Notes under the pieces: generated by a model
Database searches by the model: none
Told to the model about the DNA's origin: nothing
The model's input: only the letters and a program-made list of their open reading frames with translations
Translations under genes and position numbers: made by a program
Assembly (NCBI RefSeq): GCF_008919445.1
Contig: NZ_VSLG01000003.1
Span: 124,001 to 188,000, forward strand
Source: Serinicoccus kebangsaanensis
GTDB lineage: Bacteria; Actinomycetota; Actinomycetes; Actinomycetales; Dermatophilaceae
Direction: 5' to 3'
Length of the DNA stretch: 64,000 nucleotides
In this document: piece by piece, positions 3,973-13,572 of the stretch
Layout of the letters: each line of letters starts with the position of its first letter
How positions within the stretch are numbered: position 1 is the stretch's first letter

Positions 3973-4794
3973 TCAGGCCAGGGGGACGACGACGAAGGGC
4001 TCCGTCGTCGGCTGGTCCGAACCGCCCGTGGGCTCCACGGTGAACCCGACCGCGACGGCGTCGTCCGGCGAGCCCTCCAGCAGGGCGGTGCGCTCCTCCA
4101 GCATCTCGGGCTGCAGCACCCCCGCGGACCGGGCGGTCCCGTCGGCGCTGACGAACCAGGCCTGGTAGACGCTGCCCGCCCGGGGGGAGGCGAACTCGGC
4201 CGGGAGCTGGACGACGGCCCGGCCCTCGGCCGCCGAGACGATGACGGCGACCGGGCCGTCCTCGGTGTCCGCGGTGTGCTCGGAGGCGTCGTCGGCGCGG
4301 ATGACCTGGGTCGCAGGGTCGGGGTTGAGAGCCTGCGAGACGCCCCAGACGCCTCCGGCCAGCACCACCGCGGCAGCGGCGGCGGCGAGCCAGCGCCCGG
4401 GGCCACGGGTGGGGGCGCGGTGCCGACGTCGGGCGTCCAGGGACGTCACGTCGGCCGCACCGTCCTCGTGGGGCTCGGCGGTTGCGGTGGCGTCGCCGTC
4501 TGCCGGCGACCCGGTGGCCGCGGCCTCTCCCCCGGCGGCGTCGCGCGCCGCCCCGGCCGTCTCGGGCCCTCGGGCCTCGGTGGCGACGAGATCGAGCACG
4601 GAGGCACGCAGCTGAGCGGGGGGCTCGACCTCGAGACCGTCGCTGAGCACGAGGGCGAGGTCCTGCAGCTCCTCCACCTCACGGCGGCACCGGTCGCAGT
4701 CGGCGAGGTGCGCCTCGAAGGCCGCCCGCTCGTCGGGGTCGACGGCATCGACGGCATAGGCCGCCGCCAGGTCGTGCATGTCCGCCTCGCTCAT
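3973..4794 (-). CDS. rskA: anti-sigma-K factor RskA family
   Basis: Membrane protein of 273 residues that holds SigK inactive until regulated proteolysis releases it. The N-terminal anti-sigma domain carries the zinc-binding pattern His29-x3-Cys33-x2-Cys36 (FEAHLADCDRC). A long Ala/Glu-rich linker follows, then one membrane span at about 134-155, and an extracytoplasmic RskA C-terminal domain (about 165-273) containing the typical VYQAWFVSADG segment. Its ATG overlaps the sigK stop codon by four bases (ATGA), so the two proteins are made together, which is the normal sigma/anti-sigma arrangement. What the extracytoplasmic domain senses is not evident from the sequence. Confidence 0.93.
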   Translation of the reverse strand: MSEADMHDLAAAYAVDAVDPDERAAFEAHLADCDRCRREVEELQDLALVLSDGLEVEPPAQLRASVLDLVATEARGPETAGAARDAAGGEAAATGSPADGDATATAEPHEDGAADVTSLDARRRHRAPTRGPGRWLAAAAAAVVLAGGVWGVSQALNPDPATQVIRADDASEHTADTEDGPVAVIVSAAEGRAVVQLPAEFASPRAGSVYQAWFVSADGTARSAGVLQPEMLEERTALLEGSPDDAVAVGFTVEPTGGSDQPTTEPFVVVPLA

Positions 4795-5435
4795 CCCTGC
4801 TCACCTCCGTCCAGCTGTGTCCGCAACTTCCGCAACCCGTCCCTGATCCGCGTCTTGGCCGTTCCGAGCGGAATGTCCATGCGCTCAGCCACCTCACGGT
4901 GGGTGAACCCGGAGAAGTACGCCAGGGCGAGGGTCGTCCGGTGTGGTTCACCGATCCGGTCCAGCGCCTGCTGCACTCTTCCTGCCTCGATCCGCTCCAC
5001 GGCCTCCTCCGCGGTGACGTCGTACGGTGGTGTCTTGTTCTCTGATTCGTAGCGGTGCAACCGATCGGATTGCGCCTGTTCGGAACGAACCCGGTCCACC
5101 GACCGGCGATGGGTCAGGGTCATCACCCAACCGACCGGAGAACCGCGACCGGGATCCACCTCGGACGCCTGTCGCCAGATCTGCAGGAAGACGTCCTGGG
5201 TGACCTCCTCGGCGAGGGCGCGGTCACGGACGATGCGCAGGGCCAGGCCGAAGACGCGCGGAGCGAGCTGGTCGTAGACCTGGGCCAGGGCGCTCTGGTC
5301 GCCCTCGGCCACCGCGCGGATGAGCTCGATCAGCTCCGGCCGACCGGACGGGGAAACGTCGACGACCCGGGCCTGGCCCGGGTCGTCATGAGAGGCGTCG
5401 GAGGTCAGAGACCCTGCTCCCGTCGCCGATCCCAC
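4791..5435 (-). CDS. sigK: ECF RNA polymerase sigma factor SigK
   Basis: Extracytoplasmic-function sigma factor of 214 residues. Region 2 (about 50-115) holds the core-binding helix LAEEVTQDVFLQIW and a DNA-melting stretch followed by HRRSVDRVRSEQA. Region 4 (about 150-205) shows the helix-turn-helix FSGFTHREVAERMDIPLGTA. The translational overlap with rskA and the close match to the SigK family support the name. The chosen GTG start overlaps the end of the upstream DUF3040 gene by about 30 bases, and no better start is visible. The neighbouring secreted protein and sortase, with a CCGAAT box upstream, are its likely local targets, in place of the mycobacterial mpt70/mpt83 genes. Confidence 0.92.
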   Translation of the reverse strand: MGSATGAGSLTSDASHDDPGQARVVDVSPSGRPELIELIRAVAEGDQSALAQVYDQLAPRVFGLALRIVRDRALAEEVTQDVFLQIWRQASEVDPGRGSPVGWVMTLTHRRSVDRVRSEQAQSDRLHRYESENKTPPYDVTAEEAVERIEAGRVQQALDRIGEPHRTTLALAYFSGFTHREVAERMDIPLGTAKTRIRDGLRKLRTQLDGGEQG

Positions 5436-5836
5436 TGCTGCTCCATCCGCTCCATGAAGGTGCCACCACGAGAGCTCTTCTTCTTCGTCGTCGGCCCGGC
5501 ACCCGGACCGCGGACGTGGCCGTCCTTGCCGACGACCCCGAGCCGCCCGCGCCGTGAGGCGTTGCGGGAGGGGGACGCGGCCCAGGCACCTCCCAGCACC
5601 ATGGCCAGGAAGCCGAGCGCACCGACCCAGATCATGGAGGACATCACGCCCACGACGACCAGCGCGAGGCCAGCGAGAGCGGCGACGACACCGAGGACGA
5701 GGCGGCGTCGGTCCAGGCCGGCGGCGGCGCTCCCGGCGGCCGGGCGCTTGAGCTGGCTCGCGAGCCGGGGGTCCTCGGCGTAGAGGGCCTGCTCCATCTG
5801 CTCGAGCACACGCTGCTCGTGGTCTGAGAGCGGCAC
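5405..5836 (-). CDS. DUF3040 membrane protein
   Basis: A 143-residue protein of the actinobacterial DUF3040 family, of unknown function. The N-terminus MPLSDHEQRVLEQMEQALYA is the family hallmark. Two adjacent membrane spans (about 47-88) follow, and the tail is basic (RRGRLGVVGKDGHVR and TKKKSSRGG). The open frame extends much further upstream, but GTG at 5836 is chosen because GGAGG lies five bases before it and the hallmark begins there. A second GTG at 5842 would overlap the ribosome site. Homologues sit next to dinB or mraZ in other actinobacteria, which fits the dinB gene just upstream. Confidence 0.85.
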   Translation of the reverse strand: MPLSDHEQRVLEQMEQALYAEDPRLASQLKRPAAGSAAAGLDRRRLVLGVVAALAGLALVVVGVMSSMIWVGALGFLAMVLGGAWAASPSRNASRRGRLGVVGKDGHVRGPGAGPTTKKKSSRGGTFMERMEQQWDRRREQGL

Positions 5837-6026: not shown

Positions 6027-7253
6027 TCACCGCTGCAGCAGACTGGCTGGACGCACCGCCTGCTGCCCGAACCGGGCGACGGCGCGATCCGCTGCCCGTT
6101 CGGCCTCGCGCCAGCCCTTCTCGGGCTCGTCGAGCCGACCCTGGACCAGCGTCCGGTCAGCCTCGGTGATGCCCTCCACCCGCACACCCAGCATCCGGAT
6201 CCGGGCTCGCTGCAGTCCCAGCGCGGCATACAACGAGCACGCGGTGCCGTGGATCTCCCGGGTGACATCGGTGGGGACGGCCACGGTGCGAGACCGGGTG
6301 AGGGTGGTGAAGTCGGAGAACCGGACGGTCAGCACCACGGTGCGGCCCAGGACCCCCGCGTGCCGCATCCGGCTGGCCGTCCGCTCTGCGAGGTGCAGCA
6401 GCTGGCGTCGGACCAGCTCCGGGTCGTCCACGTCCTGTCCGAACGTCTCGGAGGACCCGACGCTGCGCTCCCGACGCTGCGGCACGACGGGATCCTGGTC
6501 GATCCCCCAGGCCAGGGTGTGCAGCCGCGTCGCGGACTGCTCGCCGAAGGCTCGGCGCAGCGTGAGCAGGGGCACATGGGCCAGCTGGGCCACCGTGTGC
6601 AGGCCCAACCGGTGCAGCTCGGCCTCGGTGGACTCCCCCACCCCCCACAGCGCGCCCACCGGCATGGGGTGCAGGAAGGGGACCACCTCGTCCCGGGTGA
6701 TCAGCCTCATGCCGTCCGGCTTGGCCGCCCGGGACGCCATCTTGGCGACCGCCTTGGAGGGGGCGCCACCGACCGAGCAGGTGATCCCTTGCTCGTCGGC
6801 CACGGTGTTGCGGATCCACCTGCCGATGCGTTCCGGGTCGCCCCAGGACCGCCCGGTGGTCGAGATGTCGAGGAAGGCCTCCTCCATCGAGACGGGCTCG
6901 ACCTGGGGGGTGACCTCGGCGAAGATCGCCATCACCGCCTCCGAGACCCGGGCGTAGCTGTCCCCGTCAGGACGGACCACGACCAGCGCCGGGCAGAGCC
7001 GGCGCGCCGTGGCCATGGGCATACCGGAGCGCACGCCGTAGGCGCGGGCCTCGTAGGTCGCGGCCAGCACCACGCTGCGCCACCCACCCCCGACCACCAT
7101 CGGCTGTCCTCGCAGGTCGGGACGGTCCAGCAGGGAGACCGCGGCGTAGAACGCGTCCATGTCGACGTGCAGCACCCATCCTCGCCCGGACCGGGCCGAG
7201 GACCCCGCGCGGTCGGAGACCGGACCGGCACGGTCACAGGTCGTGGTCACCAT
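6027..7253 (-). CDS. dinB: DNA polymerase IV (DinB, Y family)
   Basis: Translesion DNA polymerase of 408 residues. The palm motif VLHVDMDAFYAAV supplies the first metal ligand (Asp31). The second motif reads SMEEAFLDIS (residues 122-131), where most DinB proteins have S-x-D-E-A-F, so one catalytic Asp is replaced by Glu124. The helix-hairpin-helix region (VGALWGVGESTEAELHRLG) and little-finger domain are intact. No obvious C-terminal clamp-binding motif is seen; it ends VRPASLLQR. ATG at 7253 is chosen because GGGGAG lies six bases upstream. It overlaps the dnaE2 stop, so the two are translationally coupled in the LexA-controlled operon. A GTG at 7250 is an alternative start. Confidence 0.92.
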   Translation of the reverse strand: MVTTTCDRAGPVSDRAGSSARSGRGWVLHVDMDAFYAAVSLLDRPDLRGQPMVVGGGWRSVVLAATYEARAYGVRSGMPMATARRLCPALVVVRPDGDSYARVSEAVMAIFAEVTPQVEPVSMEEAFLDISTTGRSWGDPERIGRWIRNTVADEQGITCSVGGAPSKAVAKMASRAAKPDGMRLITRDEVVPFLHPMPVGALWGVGESTEAELHRLGLHTVAQLAHVPLLTLRRAFGEQSATRLHTLAWGIDQDPVVPQRRERSVGSSETFGQDVDDPELVRRQLLHLAERTASRMRHAGVLGRTVVLTVRFSDFTTLTRSRTVAVPTDVTREIHGTACSLYAALGLQRARIRMLGVRVEGITEADRTLVQGRLDEPEKGWREAERAADRAVARFGQQAVRPASLLQR

Positions 7254-10200: not shown

Positions 10201-11290
10201 CCAGGTCGGACCGGGCGTCCTGGTGACAGGCCACGGCCAGCTCCAGGGTCTCGCGCAGCAGCTCCTCGGCCCGGGCACCTGGTCCGGCAGCGCGTTCGAG
10301 CTGGTGGGCCAGGGCATGCATGGTGGCGGTCGTCGCCAGATGCCCGGCGCTGCTGACGCGGTCCAGGTGACGCTCGTCCAGCGCGACCCGTCGCCGGGCC
10401 GCGTCGAGCACGTCCACCACGCGCGCCTGCTCGGGGCGGGCGTGCCGCACCGCGGCCGTGAGCACGGCGGGGATGCCCGCCTCCCGGGCCAGCGCCCAGG
10501 ACGCCGTGGCGTGCGCCAGGCTGCCCGGTGTCCCGTCGGGTCCCCCGTGACAGACCACCTCGATCCGCACCGCTCCCGCCGGGAGCAGTCTGGTCCACCC
10601 CAGGAGCAGCCGTCGGGCCAGGTCCCGACGTCGAGCCAGCAGCGCCCGGCCGACGTCGGAGTCCGGACCGAGCAGCACGACGACCGGTGCCACCCCTGCC
10701 GTGGTCGCCGCCGCGCGGGCGATGAGCTCGGGGGTGACCCGGGGGACGGACCGCTCACCCGACAGATGGGTGTGGGTGACCAGCCGGCACAGGCGGGACC
10801 ATCCTGCTCCTGCCTCGGCCCCGCCGCGCTGGCCCCGCGCCAGCAGCACCACCCTCGGCTGCTGGTCGTCGACCAGCGTCCCTCCCTTGACCGGCGTGCG
10901 TGGACCACGCCGCTCCGGTCGGACGTCGAGACCCTCGCCCCATCCGCGACCGGGGGCCACCCGGTGCCGTCCTGGCGGTGGGTCGTCCCGCAGCCCGGTG
11001 ACGAACGGGCTCCCGGCCGGGCCCGGTCCACCCTGGCCCGGCCCGGGCGGCGAACCCCCCAGGGCGAGATCCACACCGAGCACCGGGGCGATCCCCGCCT
11101 CGCCGCAGGCACGGACGAACCGCACCGCACCGTAGAGCCCGTCACGGTCGGTCAACGCCAGTGCCGACTGCCCCAACCCGGCCGCCCGGTCGACCAGCTC
11201 GGTCGGGTGGGACGCGCCGTAGCGCATGGAAGCACTGGAGGAGACGTGCAGATGGACGAAGTCGTCACCGGCGCCGCTCACCGGTCTCAC
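7247..11290 (-). CDS. dnaE2: error-prone DNA polymerase III alpha (DnaE2)
   Basis: Damage-inducible C-family polymerase of about 1347 residues. It shows the N-terminal PHP domain (FVHLHVSSSASMRYGASHPTELVDRA), the polymerase core with the catalytic LPDIDIDVE and GRAVAARGSGAGSLVTYLLGI-type segments, the helix-hairpin-helix region and a C-terminal OB fold (VVFLTVDDGSGPADATFF). It is longer than the usual 1050-1100 residues because of Gly/Pro-rich insertions after the first PHP motif and near residues 990-1150. The open frame extends to 11761, but homology begins at VSGAGDDFVHLH. GTG at 11290 gives a GTGA overlap with the upstream gene; GTG at 11281 is the alternative. It is the third gene of an SOS operon. 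Confidence 0.93.
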   Translation of the reverse strand: MRPVSGAGDDFVHLHVSSSASMRYGASHPTELVDRAAGLGQSALALTDRDGLYGAVRFVRACGEAGIAPVLGVDLALGGSPPGPGQGGPGPAGSPFVTGLRDDPPPGRHRVAPGRGWGEGLDVRPERRGPRTPVKGGTLVDDQQPRVVLLARGQRGGAEAGAGWSRLCRLVTHTHLSGERSVPRVTPELIARAAATTAGVAPVVVLLGPDSDVGRALLARRRDLARRLLLGWTRLLPAGAVRIEVVCHGGPDGTPGSLAHATASWALAREAGIPAVLTAAVRHARPEQARVVDVLDAARRRVALDERHLDRVSSAGHLATTATMHALAHQLERAAGPGARAEELLRETLELAVACHQDARSDLGIGAVHLPEPEVLGVRGVGQAHQVLTERCTQAVGARYPGGGPSFRRKVHDRLEEELGVIAGLGYPTYFLTVAQVCDLIRDHGVRVAARGSGAGSLVTYLLGISGVDPMEHGLLMERFCSPLRAQLPDIDIDVESARRTELYERILERFGSERVTCVSMTETYRVRHAVRDVAATLGMPPGEIDIIAKAFPHIRARDARAAIRDLPELRRQGLDAPRMQLLMELVESLDGLPRHIAMHPCGVVLSDTGLLDRTPVEASWLGFPMSQFDKDDVEELGLLKLDVLGIRMQSAMTHALDEVERVDGSRIDLDDRAQVPLDDPDTFALIQSTRTLGCFQIESPGQRELVGKFAPESFADIIIDISLFRPGPVKSDMIRPFLHARQGWGEPEYLHPSLVPHLEQTCGVVVFHEQVLQIVAETTGVSLAQADEVRRAMGSPAGQDEVEVWWRGAAAARGYHGDEVDRIWEVLAAFASFGFCKAHAAAFALPTYQSAWLKTHHTAAFLAGVLTHDPGMYPKRLILDEARTMGVHVLGLDVNASGATYRVERVDQPAQDAGAHLDQDSGIPGGFLSAPAGPPSTQGTVRRTGDRVDATMELVERRAAGYGIRLSLADVKGITDDEVARIVAGAPYDSLSDLWHRAHPSRPTAERLVLAGALDRLHRVGRCSPRGEHTSGRSTGGAGRATLTRRDLMLHVRDLERWSRHATSGRGARGGRRRPAPVIEAGEVAARAGGQAVGRRSWHAAGEGPATQLTLQLGDDPAPLVGSGLPEMSESEQLRAELEVLGMDVSHHVMDTFGPMLAELGVTRSRDLLSYGSGAEVLVAGAKVATQTPPVRSGRRVVFLTVDDGSGPADATFFEDVQGPYAATVFHSWLLVVRGVVRRTGPRGVSIRATAAWELGEIAQAWEAGGRAAALAAMEQAERTARQVAQEAEDASRRASEEAGAPPGRRVLLHASGFAQSPYADVAPAGEATRQPGTKLWHSSPGSPGW

Positions 11291-11730
11291 CCAGGACCCA
11301 GCGGCACCAGCTCGGAGTGCAGCGGTGTCTCGCACGGCAGGTGCAGCGACGCGCGCACCAGCTCCAGGAAGCGCTCCCCCGCCCGGACCAGGTCGTCGGC
11401 GTCCCGCGCCGTGACGGTGGCGCGACCGGCGCCACGCTCCAGGACGATCCGCCGCCGACCGGACTCGGCGAAGAACGCCGCCCACTCGGTCAGCTCGGGT
11501 GCCACCGAGGGCAGCACCTCCCACACGCTGCGGGGGCGGCTGCGCCTGCTGGGCGACGGTGTCGTCCGGGCGGCCAGCAACGCCGCGCCGGCCCGCAACG
11601 CGGCGAGGTGCGCCTGGGTGTACCGCTCTGCTGCGGTGCCGCTGTGGCACGCCTGCAGCAGCACCCCTCGCGAGCGCTCCAGCAGATCCAGCACCGCCCC
11701 CGCAGTGGCACCTGTCTCGGTGACCGTCAT
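11287..11730 (-). CDS. SAV_6107 family HEPN-domain protein
   Basis: A 147-residue helical protein of the SAV_6107 family, annotated in databases as HEPN-like and usually found beside dnaE2 or Y-family polymerases in actinobacteria. The N-terminal part (AVLDLLERSRGVLLQACHSG) and the later WAAFFAESGRRR are well conserved as I recall. No canonical HEPN RNase R-x4-6-H motif is obvious, so an RNase activity is unproven. The ATG at 11730 is preceded by AAGGACGAGGAG. It sits between the DUF6504 gene and dnaE2 and overlaps dnaE2 by four bases. It is therefore probably an accessory factor of the DnaE2/DinB mutagenesis machinery; that role is inference. Confidence 0.8.
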   Translation of the reverse strand: MTVTETGATAGAVLDLLERSRGVLLQACHSGTAAERYTQAHLAALRAGAALLAARTTPSPSRRSRPRSVWEVLPSVAPELTEWAAFFAESGRRRIVLERGAGRATVTARDADDLVRAGERFLELVRASLHLPCETPLHSELVPLGPG

Positions 11731-11800
11731 CTCCTCGTCCTTCCGTCGTCCTGTCCTGCACCAGCTGGTCGGCCGTCCATCGGCTCCTCCGCCGCGGGCA

Positions 11801-12175
11801 TCAGTCGGCCACCCGGTCCAGCCACCACTGCTCTCCCTGGACGAGGTCGTAGACCCCGGTCCCGGACGTCCTCCCGGCGCTGGCCTCGACCCGCCAGACC
11901 ACCCGCTCCAGCTGACCGTCCACCTCGCCCTCGACGGCGTCGACCGTGGCGCCCTGCTCGACCTGCGGCTGCTCGCTCCTCCACCACGGGACCCGCACGG
12001 TCCACCGGTCCAGCACCGCACGCACGAGGTGCGGCCGACCCCGCCAGAGGAAGACGGTGGGCACCTGCGGGCACTCGCCCGCGGGGCTGACCGGCACGGC
12101 GCCCTCCCACCGGACACCGTGCTCCTCCGCCGCACCCACCTTCATCTCGACCGGCTCGTGATAGCTCCTGCTCAT
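11801..12175 (-). CDS. DUF6504 family protein, first gene of the SOS mutagenesis operon
   Basis: A 124-residue protein rich in Trp, Glu and Val with no membrane span or signal. It matches the DUF6504 family, which accompanies dnaE2-type operons in actinobacteria. The sequence FLWRGRPHLVRAVLDRWTVR followed by paired Trp residues (VPWWRS, QWWLD) suggests a small beta-barrel-like fold, possibly nucleic-acid binding. The open frame starts earlier, but ATG at 12175 is preferred because GAGGAGG lies about ten bases upstream and homologues begin near MSRSYHEPVEMKV. It is the gene closest to the LexA box at 12233-12248. No function is established. Confidence 0.78.
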   Translation of the reverse strand: MSRSYHEPVEMKVGAAEEHGVRWEGAVPVSPAGECPQVPTVFLWRGRPHLVRAVLDRWTVRVPWWRSEQPQVEQGATVDAVEGEVDGQLERVVWRVEASAGRTSGTGVYDLVQGEQWWLDRVAD

Positions 12176-12232
12176 GCTTCTTCGTCCGCCTCCTCGACGT
12201 CGCACGGGCCGGGCACCGACCACCTAGGATCA

Positions 12233-12248
12233 TCGAACTCGTGTTCGA
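12233..12248. promoter_or_regulatory. LexA (SOS) box
   Basis: TCGAAC-TCGT-GTTCGA is a perfect 16-bp palindrome matching the actinobacterial/Gram-positive SOS consensus CGAAC-N4-GTTCG. It lies 58 bases upstream of the DUF6504 start and inside the likely promoter region of the leftward DUF6504-SAV_6107-dnaE2-dinB operon. It could also affect the rightward polyprenyl synthase gene, but that promoter lies about 160 bases away. Confidence 0.9.
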
Positions 12249-12489
12249 CGATGGGAACAAATGTACGACTGCGCACCGACAGACTTCAACCCCCGACCCC
12301 CTGTGGACAACTTCTGCGCCCGCCGCGGCATCCGCAGCAGCATGGAGGTCGTCTGCCGGCCCGGGCCGCGGGAGGGGGTGGCCCGGGCCGGCCGGACGGC
12401 GGATAGGCTCAGGTGCGGGCGATCAGCCGGGCCCACCACCCTCCCGGCCACCCCACCGGCGACCCGGCCGAGGCACAGGAGGACTCGTG
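12249..12489. other. gene-free leader between divergent operons
   Basis: Apart from the LexA box at its left end and the -10 box at 12404-12409, this stretch holds no gene or RNA that I recognise. The small leftward frame across it has atypical codon use and no ribosome site. Confidence 0.5.
12404..12409 (+). promoter_or_regulatory. -10 box (TAGGCT) for polyprenyl diphosphate synthase
   Basis: GATAGGCT matches TANNNT and would start a transcript with a leader of about 75 bases before the ATG at 12490. That leader carries a clear AGGAGG ribosome site. Confidence 0.4.
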
Positions 12490-13572
12490 ATGCACGCCCT
12501 GGACGGCGTGGACCTGCGCCCCCGCGTGCAGCAGGCCCTGGACGACCATCTCACCCGGCAACGGGGCGTGCTGGAGGACCTCGGGCCCCCGATGACCCCC
12601 TTGGTCGACTCCGTCGCCGACCTGCTCTCCGGCGGCAAGCGGCTCCGAGCCGCCTTCTTCTACTGGGGATGGCGCGCCCTGGGCCGGCCCGACGACCACG
12701 CGGTGGTCCGTGCCGCCAGCGCGATGGAGATCTTCCAGGCGGCCGCGCTCCTGCACGACGACGTCATGGACAACAGCGACCTGCGCCGCGGTCGCCCCAC
12801 CGCGCACCGCACCTTCAGCACCTGGCACCAGGAGCAGGGGTGGGCCGGTGACCCGGTCCGGTTCGGCCACGCGGCCGCCGTCCTCGCGGGAGATCTCTGC
12901 CTCAACTGGACGGACGAGGTCTTCGCCACCAGCGGACTGCCGGCCGCGGCCCTGCAGCGCGCCCGCCCCGAGTTCGACCGGATGCGCAGCCAGCTCATGG
13001 GCGGTCAGTTCCTCGACATCCTCGAGGGTGCTCGCGGGTGGCGCGACCTCGCCCCGGAGCAACGCCTGGAACGCTGCCTCACGGTCATCCGCTACAAGAG
13101 CGCCCGCTACTCCGTCGAGCAGCCGCTGCTCATCGGGGCGGACGCCGCGGACGCAGCCACCGGGACCCGGGTCGGACTGGCGGGCTACGGTGCCGCGCTC
13201 GGCGAGGCCTTCCAGCTGCGGGACGACGTCCTGGGTGTCTTCGGTGATCCGGAGCAGACGGGCAAGCCCGCGGGGGACGACCTCCGGGAGGGCAAGCACA
13301 CCGTGCTGGTCGCACACGCCCTCGCCCACGCCGACCCCGAGGGTGTCGAGCTCATCGACGCGTCCCTCGGGACGGCGGACCTCGACGACGCCACGGTCCA
13401 GGACGTCCGTGACGTCCTGGTGCGCTCCACCGCCCTGGAGCGCACCGAGGAGATGATCAGCGGCGGTGCCCGCCGCGCCCTGCAGGCGCTGGACCGCACC
13501 CCGGGCCTCACCGACGAGGGCCGGCAGGCCCTCCGGGACCTCGTCGCCATCTGCACCGACCGCGCGCTCTGA
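12490..13572 (+). CDS. trans-polyprenyl diphosphate synthase (IdsA-like)
   Basis: Condenses isopentenyl diphosphate with allylic diphosphates to make a C20 or longer chain for quinones, carotenoids or carriers. The 360-residue protein has both Asp-rich motifs: HDDVMD (Asp90, Asp91, Asp94) followed by the basic DLRRG, and RDDVLGVFGD (Asp245, Asp246), with the GGKRLR substrate motif at 48-53. ATG at 12490 is chosen because AGGAGG lies seven bases upstream; an in-frame GTG sits immediately before it. Mycobacterial idsA2 occupies the same position beside the Rv2175c-type gene and pknL. Product length cannot be read from the sequence with certainty. Confidence 0.88.
   Translation: MHALDGVDLRPRVQQALDDHLTRQRGVLEDLGPPMTPLVDSVADLLSGGKRLRAAFFYWGWRALGRPDDHAVVRAASAMEIFQAAALLHDDVMDNSDLRRGRPTAHRTFSTWHQEQGWAGDPVRFGHAAAVLAGDLCLNWTDEVFATSGLPAAALQRARPEFDRMRSQLMGGQFLDILEGARGWRDLAPEQRLERCLTVIRYKSARYSVEQPLLIGADAADAATGTRVGLAGYGAALGEAFQLRDDVLGVFGDPEQTGKPAGDDLREGKHTVLVAHALAHADPEGVELIDASLGTADLDDATVQDVRDVLVRSTALERTEEMISGGARRALQALDRTPGLTDEGRQALRDLVAICTDRAL

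Follow-up and report, generated by a model that had tools for sequence, protein, structure and literature searches.

The closest described relatives of the locus analysed here are the DnaE2B-PolY-[ImuB-C]-RecA and DnaE2B-[ImuB-C] modules of Actinobacteria, for example Tessaracoccus lapidicaptus and Arthrobacter alpinus, which were published in 2026; for the former type, the main text of that paper proposes that RecA takes the role of ImuA' (PMC12926913). A second point of reference is the ImuA'-ImuB-DnaE2 mutasome of Mycobacterium and Proteobacteria, and in a published model of the mycobacterial complex the C-terminal domain of ImuB (ImuB-C) docks on the PHP domain of DnaE2. ImuB-C is described as a beta domain in the available parts of two articles (PMC12926913, PMC3765255), and a superfamily of standalone ImuB-C proteins was presented by Aravind 2013 (PMC3765255). 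Unlike the present analysis, the available part of the latter article draws no tie from ImuB-C to DUF6504 or SAV_6107, and the term HEPN does not occur in it. The HEPN-M (SAV_6107) family of the HEPN superfamily was described by Anantharaman 2013 (PMC3710099); its table row gives neither an architecture nor an operon, and DinB and DnaE do not occur in the main text.

The locus studied here lies in a stretch of 64,000 nucleotides from Serinicoccus kebangsaanensis (the window), in which a LexA/SOS box is followed by four leftward genes (Table 1), with polyprenyl synthetase and DUF3040 genes among their neighbours. The first-pass annotation had described a perfect palindromic SOS box ahead of four tightly packed genes, and both elements were recovered with some refinement. 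The 6-base arms of the box form a perfect palindrome and its 4-base spacer is non-palindromic; DUF6504 and SAV_6107 are separated by 70 bp, and the SAV_6107/dnaE2 and dnaE2/dinB junctions are overlaps of 4 bp (GTGA) and 7 bp (ATGGTGA), respectively. Judged from its sequence, the locus is a four-gene operon behind a LexA-type box, which would presumably be induced by DNA damage.

Table 1. Boxes and genes of the operon (positions are those of the window)
Feature	Position	Strand	Remarks
LexA/SOS box TCGAACTCGTGTTCGA	12233-12248	.	57 bp 5' of the DUF6504 start codon; position kept in relatives
Possible, weak second LexA-like site GGGAACAAATGTACGA	12253-12268	.	9/12 positions; 20 bp from the first; read directly from the sequence
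DUF6504 protein, 124 aa	11801-12175	-	PF20114, E 7.4e-13; read as standalone ImuB-C
SAV_6107-family HEPN protein, 147 aa	11287-11730	-	PF18726, E 1.2e-32
dnaE2, GTG start, 1347 aa	7247-11290	-	DnaE2B-like C-family polymerase, not in the ImuB-linked clade
dinB, 408 aa	6027-7253	-	Y-family polymerase with RecA-NT-like C-terminal motif

The sequence TCGAACN4GTTCGA has its sole exact match in the window at this box, and four matches with up to two mismatches were found versus 1.64 expected. Across the 3.5-Mb genome, CGAACN4GTTCG is limited to two places. The closest named relatives belong to Serinicoccus (86% identity in SAV_6107), and two Serinicoccus records (L208, L209) retain the box with an altered spacer. 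The comparison was extended by a survey of 216 genomes of the host's class, in which, at E 0.01, DUF6504 was present in 98 and SAV_6107 in 157. The 108 DUF6504 places in these 98 genomes include, among the matches listed, at least 53 directly 5' of SAV_6107 on the same strand; in G048 and G178 the adjoining SAV_6107 was taken from a separate scan. The 140 loci fetched comprised 54 with DUF6504 and SAV_6107, 18 with DUF6504 only (in L126 and L127 the matches score below the cut-off) and 68 with SAV_6107 only; among the matches listed, this left aside 35 of 55 DUF6504 places that lack an adjoining SAV_6107 and 17 of 85 SAV_6107-only genomes.

When 650 bp 5' of the first gene were scanned for at least 11 of the 12 box positions, 53 of 54 other loci with DUF6504 and SAV_6107 were found to have a box ahead of the pair, and the only miss (L100) has a perfect box farther upstream. 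The background, taken from random windows of the same loci, was 0.6% of 6338; together with the changed spacers in Serinicoccus, this places the box beyond chance. The same scan detected a box before SAV_6107 in 55 of the 68 loci that lack DUF6504 and before DUF6504 in 11 of the 18 that lack SAV_6107, so that SAV_6107 or the pair is preceded by a box in 108 of 122 loci, versus the 0.6% background. Loci lacking a box are concentrated in one family, f22 (0/9). Our family labels (f1-f42) carry no taxon names, and f22 is called Streptomyces-like because 64 Streptomyces/Streptomycetaceae loci, out of the best 80 kept from at least 500, show the same pattern: within 450 bp an exact box is lacking in all of them, and none contains DUF6504, DnaE2 or DinB in the locus. 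In the other families examined, SAV_6107 is therefore preceded by a LexA box as a rule, independently of DnaE2. With such a box ahead of it in most of the actinobacterial families sampled, SAV_6107 appears to be a widespread SOS gene of actinobacteria.

DUF6504 is very probably the standalone form of ImuB-C, a reading based on Pfam matches to the C-terminal ends of alphaproteobacterial ImuBs, on an all-beta model and on a near-exclusion with ImuB-type DnaE2. Nine ImuB-type proteins were scanned with PF20114, and the four alphaproteobacterial ones all gave a C-terminal match (E 5.6e-5 to 1.5e-3, within residues 400-507) with scores of 19.2-23.8 bits, under the curated Pfam cut-off of 24.2 bits; none of the remaining five, including all four actinobacterial ones, was matched. 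At E 1, PF20114 gave no match to any of 12 actinobacterial ImuB tails when these were scanned alone, and a profile derived from four such tails failed to retrieve DUF6504 at E<1. Alignment of the 12 tails with two DUF6504 alignments by hhalign gave P=0.0044 and 0.013 with the W-WW columns aligned, at low hhalign probabilities of 7.9% and 3.4%, versus P=0.52 for SAV_6107 as a control. Within 14 control genomes PF20114 was found above the cut-off in Caulobacter only, which carries an imuA-imuB-dnaE2 operon. The predicted DUF6504 structure is all-beta (pLDDT 83; a putative barrel), and W117 is invariant across 22 sequences.

In the 216 genomes, DUF6504 was above the cut-off in 92 and an error-prone DnaE above the NF004225 cut-off also in 92, and both were present in only six (Fisher P=1.9e-22, uncorrected for phylogeny, so that the kinship of the genomes overstates the significance). 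Such a near-exclusion would be expected of a domain that exists either as a part of ImuB or as a free protein. On the matches of PF20114 to Caulobacter and to alphaproteobacterial ImuBs, the view that DUF6504 is an unknown protein unrelated to ImuB was rejected. The initial view that neither ImuA' nor ImuB is present therefore needs to be divided: full-length ImuB and a clear ImuA' (by PF00154) were indeed not found in the genome, but since DUF6504 is most likely free ImuB-C, a part of ImuB would be present.

The search for Y-family genes at E 0.01 returned three, namely the DinB of the operon, one whose C-terminal extension is longer and a shorter one; all three retain an acidic catalytic pair (read by eye in the third), and none is a full-length ImuB with an inactive Y-family domain fused to ImuB-C. 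PF00154 detected one RecA above its cut-off, one weak match of 24.2 bits below the cut-off and one at E 0.57, and thus no clear ImuA'-like RecA paralogue, a result that a very divergent ImuA' could escape. In a DnaE tree of 85 tips, with the DnaE1 of the genome as the outgroup, the 16 ImuB-linked sequences formed one clade (support 1.0) and the DnaE2 of the window was placed among the 68 other tips (support 0.93); published DnaE2B sequences were not part of the tree, and DnaE2B-like denotes a position outside the ImuB-linked clade. The DnaE proteins of all 10 ImuB-linked chromosomal loci scored above the NF004225 cut-off.

The DinB tail ...AADRAVARFGQQAVRPASLL resembles the N-terminal motif ...VMAQIEKQHGKGSVMRLG of the RecA of the genome, in a comparison made by eye, and through this tail RecA is the likely stand-in for ImuA'. 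It should be noted that the catalytic pair of the operon DinB is Glu-Glu (SMEEAFLD versus the usual S.DEAFLD) in place of Asp-Glu, and therefore the protein may be weak or inactive. The Glu-Glu pair is shared with two Serinicoccus records and one Ornithinimicrobium record; of 95 sequences compared, five have it and 86 have Asp-Glu-Ala-Phe.

Because DnaE2 lies outside the ImuB-linked clade and DinB has a RecA-NT-like end, the operon core corresponds to the DnaE2B-PolY-[ImuB-C]-RecA module as described in the main text of PMC12926913, with which it also shares a standalone ImuB-C-like protein, a Y-family polymerase (its tail appearing RecA-NT-like by eye) and the lack of any ImuA or ImuB found. 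DUF6504 likewise resembles the standalone ImuB-C superfamily in the available part of PMC3765255 in being small and mostly beta, in its conserved C-terminal Trp and in lying next to SOS-network genes for DinB/DnaE2. With the ImuA'-ImuB-DnaE2 mutasome the operon has in common a LexA-type box, DnaE2 and an ImuB-C-like domain, but it differs in the absence of a fused ImuB and of an evident ImuA' and in having a DnaE2 from another clade. In contrast to the published DnaE2B modules, SAV_6107 lies inside the operon; the main text of PMC12926913, as distinct from its supplements, contains no occurrence of HEPN, DUF or SAV. What is new here is that DUF6504 is very probably the ImuB-C of such modules, that SAV_6107 is part of the operon in many families, and that SAV_6107 is a recurrent LexA-box gene; no earlier statement of these three points was found in the literature searched, the scope of which excluded most subscription papers and all supplements.

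The role of SAV_6107 is best judged from the company that it keeps. Locus classes were counted from same-strand matches of more than 250 bits within the fetched stretch, and some absences are contig ends. Of the 140 loci, 40 with 21 family labels have all four genes on one strand (L083 with an 8-kb gap), and so have 12 of 16 loci from outside Streptomyces among the best 80 kept from at least 500; SAV_6107 is hence an operon member in many families. This arrangement, in which DUF6504 and SAV_6107 usually lie between the box and dnaE2, in a genome without full ImuB or evident ImuA', would agree with the earlier proposal that the two proteins together take the place of ImuA' and ImuB as novel functional substitutes, loading or restraining DnaE2. 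We regard that proposal as quite unlikely, as DUF6504 is apparently homologous to a part of ImuB and as SAV_6107 behaves differently from a replacement: it coexists with ImuB and DnaE2(A) in 10 of 140 loci, in 56 of the 68 SAV_6107 loci without DUF6504 the fetched stretch contains no same-strand DnaE2, and five of 140 loci have DUF6504, DnaE2 and DinB without it. Furthermore, across the 216 related genomes its presence was independent of ImuB-type DnaE2 (P=0.36) and of DUF6504 (P=0.45). On these counts, the reading of SAV_6107 as a stand-in specific to ImuA' or ImuB was rejected. DUF6504 occurs without the other three genes in 12 of 140 loci, and smaller classes make up 17 together, several of which are contig ends.

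The 23 of 140 loci that contain SAV_6107 and a same-strand DinB without DnaE2, of which 19 show an exact box when 450 bp are scanned, raise a different possibility, namely that the old unit consisted of the SOS box, SAV_6107 and DinB, that DUF6504 and dnaE2 were inserted later, and that the HEPN protein regulates the Y-family polymerase. This appears unlikely in the light of the 33 of 140 SAV_6107 loci that have none of DUF6504, DinB and DnaE2, of which 20 have an exact box. These loci, some of them perhaps contig ends, include all 11 of family f23. They are joined by the Flexivirga locus L221, in which SAV_6107 and its box are found between MTHFR and DUF3040 genes with no DinB or DnaE2 in the locus, and a common chromosomal position may account for part of the linkage with DinB. 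Loci of f23 can show a weaker Y-family match on the opposite strand (L145).

A common position would also suit the explanation that SAV_6107 is a passenger at a conserved chromosomal site with a shared promoter, as the site neighbours recur (polyprenyl synthetase and DUF3040 genes in the window, MTHFR and DUF3040 genes in L221). A passenger would need no box of its own, but the box stays with SAV_6107 in differing surroundings, for example in the f23 loci L146 and L187, where a PAC2-family gene and an FAD oxidoreductase gene adjoin it, and we consider this explanation very unlikely. Taken on its own evidence, SAV_6107 is probably an accessory SOS protein and not a core subunit; its packing between DUF6504 and DnaE2 in many families would also fit a real subunit.

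The explanation that we favour, with considerable though not full confidence, is that the operon encodes a LexA-repressed split mutasome to which SAV_6107 is accessory and of which it is not an obligatory subunit. As the box suggests, DNA damage would activate RecA, LexA would be cleaved, and the four genes would be co-transcribed. By homology, DnaE2 would be a mutagenic polymerase of the DnaE2B type, on which DUF6504, as free ImuB-C, would dock in the manner of ImuB-C on the PHP domain in the mycobacterial model. DinB would contribute the Y-family part, and its RecA-NT-like tail, if the motif recognized by eye is correct, would bind RecA in the place of ImuA', so that the products could assemble into a DnaE2B-PolY-[ImuB-C]-RecA complex. 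SAV_6107, the association of which with the operon is observed, would ride in it as an accessory actinobacterial SOS HEPN protein.

The assignment of SAV_6107 as a HEPN-family protein was confirmed by its four-helix HEPN fold, and AF0298 and AbiV are among its structural matches. The canonical Rx4-6H motif of HEPN RNases at the end of helix 3 is not conserved in the 121 SAV_6107 sequences analysed, in agreement with the HEPN-M (SAV_6107) family in the main text of PMC3710099, which is the same family, actinobacterial and likewise without a conserved Rx4-6H. R94 is kept in 118 of 121 sequences without a conserved His following it, and H41, which is located in helix 2, is conserved in 114; with this other His conserved, an RNase role is conceivable. 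It is conceivable, though doubtful, that SAV_6107 is a widespread and hitherto unrecognized LexA-controlled HEPN effector of the actinobacterial SOS response, possibly an RNA-acting checkpoint during the work of error-prone polymerases; as such, it might possibly use a non-canonical site of R94 with H41, by analogy with the proposals for AF0298 and AbiV.

For the biology of this group, DUF6504 gains a probable name as standalone ImuB-C, with which the mutagenesis cassettes of many actinobacteria become readable from annotation, and the operon offers a small gene set for damage-induced mutagenesis in bacteria without ImuA' and ImuB. In addition, a conserved HEPN protein is singled out by the LexA box that precedes it in most families examined. 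If SAV_6107 is indeed an effector, its presence in DnaE2A-ImuB as well as in DnaE2B-ImuB-C operons would point to a requirement that mutagenic repair has in common in these bacteria.

The exact sequence CGAACN4GTTCG has, genome-wide, a single further copy besides the box of the operon (C8:62073-62086). In family f20 (loci L110-L114), the sites upstream of the DUF6504 gene read RRGAACN4GTTCGA, with 10 of the 12 positions matching, as opposed to the full palindrome.

Additional features in the window
Feature	Position	Remarks
Possible weak second LexA-like site GGGAACAAATGTACGA	12253-12268	the perfect box lies at a distance of 20 bp
Sigma-70-family (ECF-like) and DUF3040 genes	4791-5836	same strand as dinB, after dinB
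Polyprenyl synthetase gene	12490-13572	divergent

The catalytic motif encoded by dinB of the window (6027-7253) is SMEEAFLD, with Glu replacing Asp. This change is common to the present genome and to the Serinicoccus and Ornithinimicrobium records (L208-L210); [S/A].DEAF is present in 86 of the 95 sequences compared.

Two relatives contain a SAM-methyltransferase gene between dnaE2 and dinB (L070, 8038-8922, and L087, 8391-9251); the window has no such gene. Four small genomes of family f29 (L122-L125) retain the box followed by DUF6504, DnaE2 and DinB, and SAV_6107 is absent. Three loci (L086, L106 and L109) encode DUF6504, SAV_6107 and DinB without a DnaE2 in the stretch fetched around them, and in each of the respective genomes (G146, G202 and G178) a DnaE2 of the ImuB type is found elsewhere, as if the one type had been displaced by the other.
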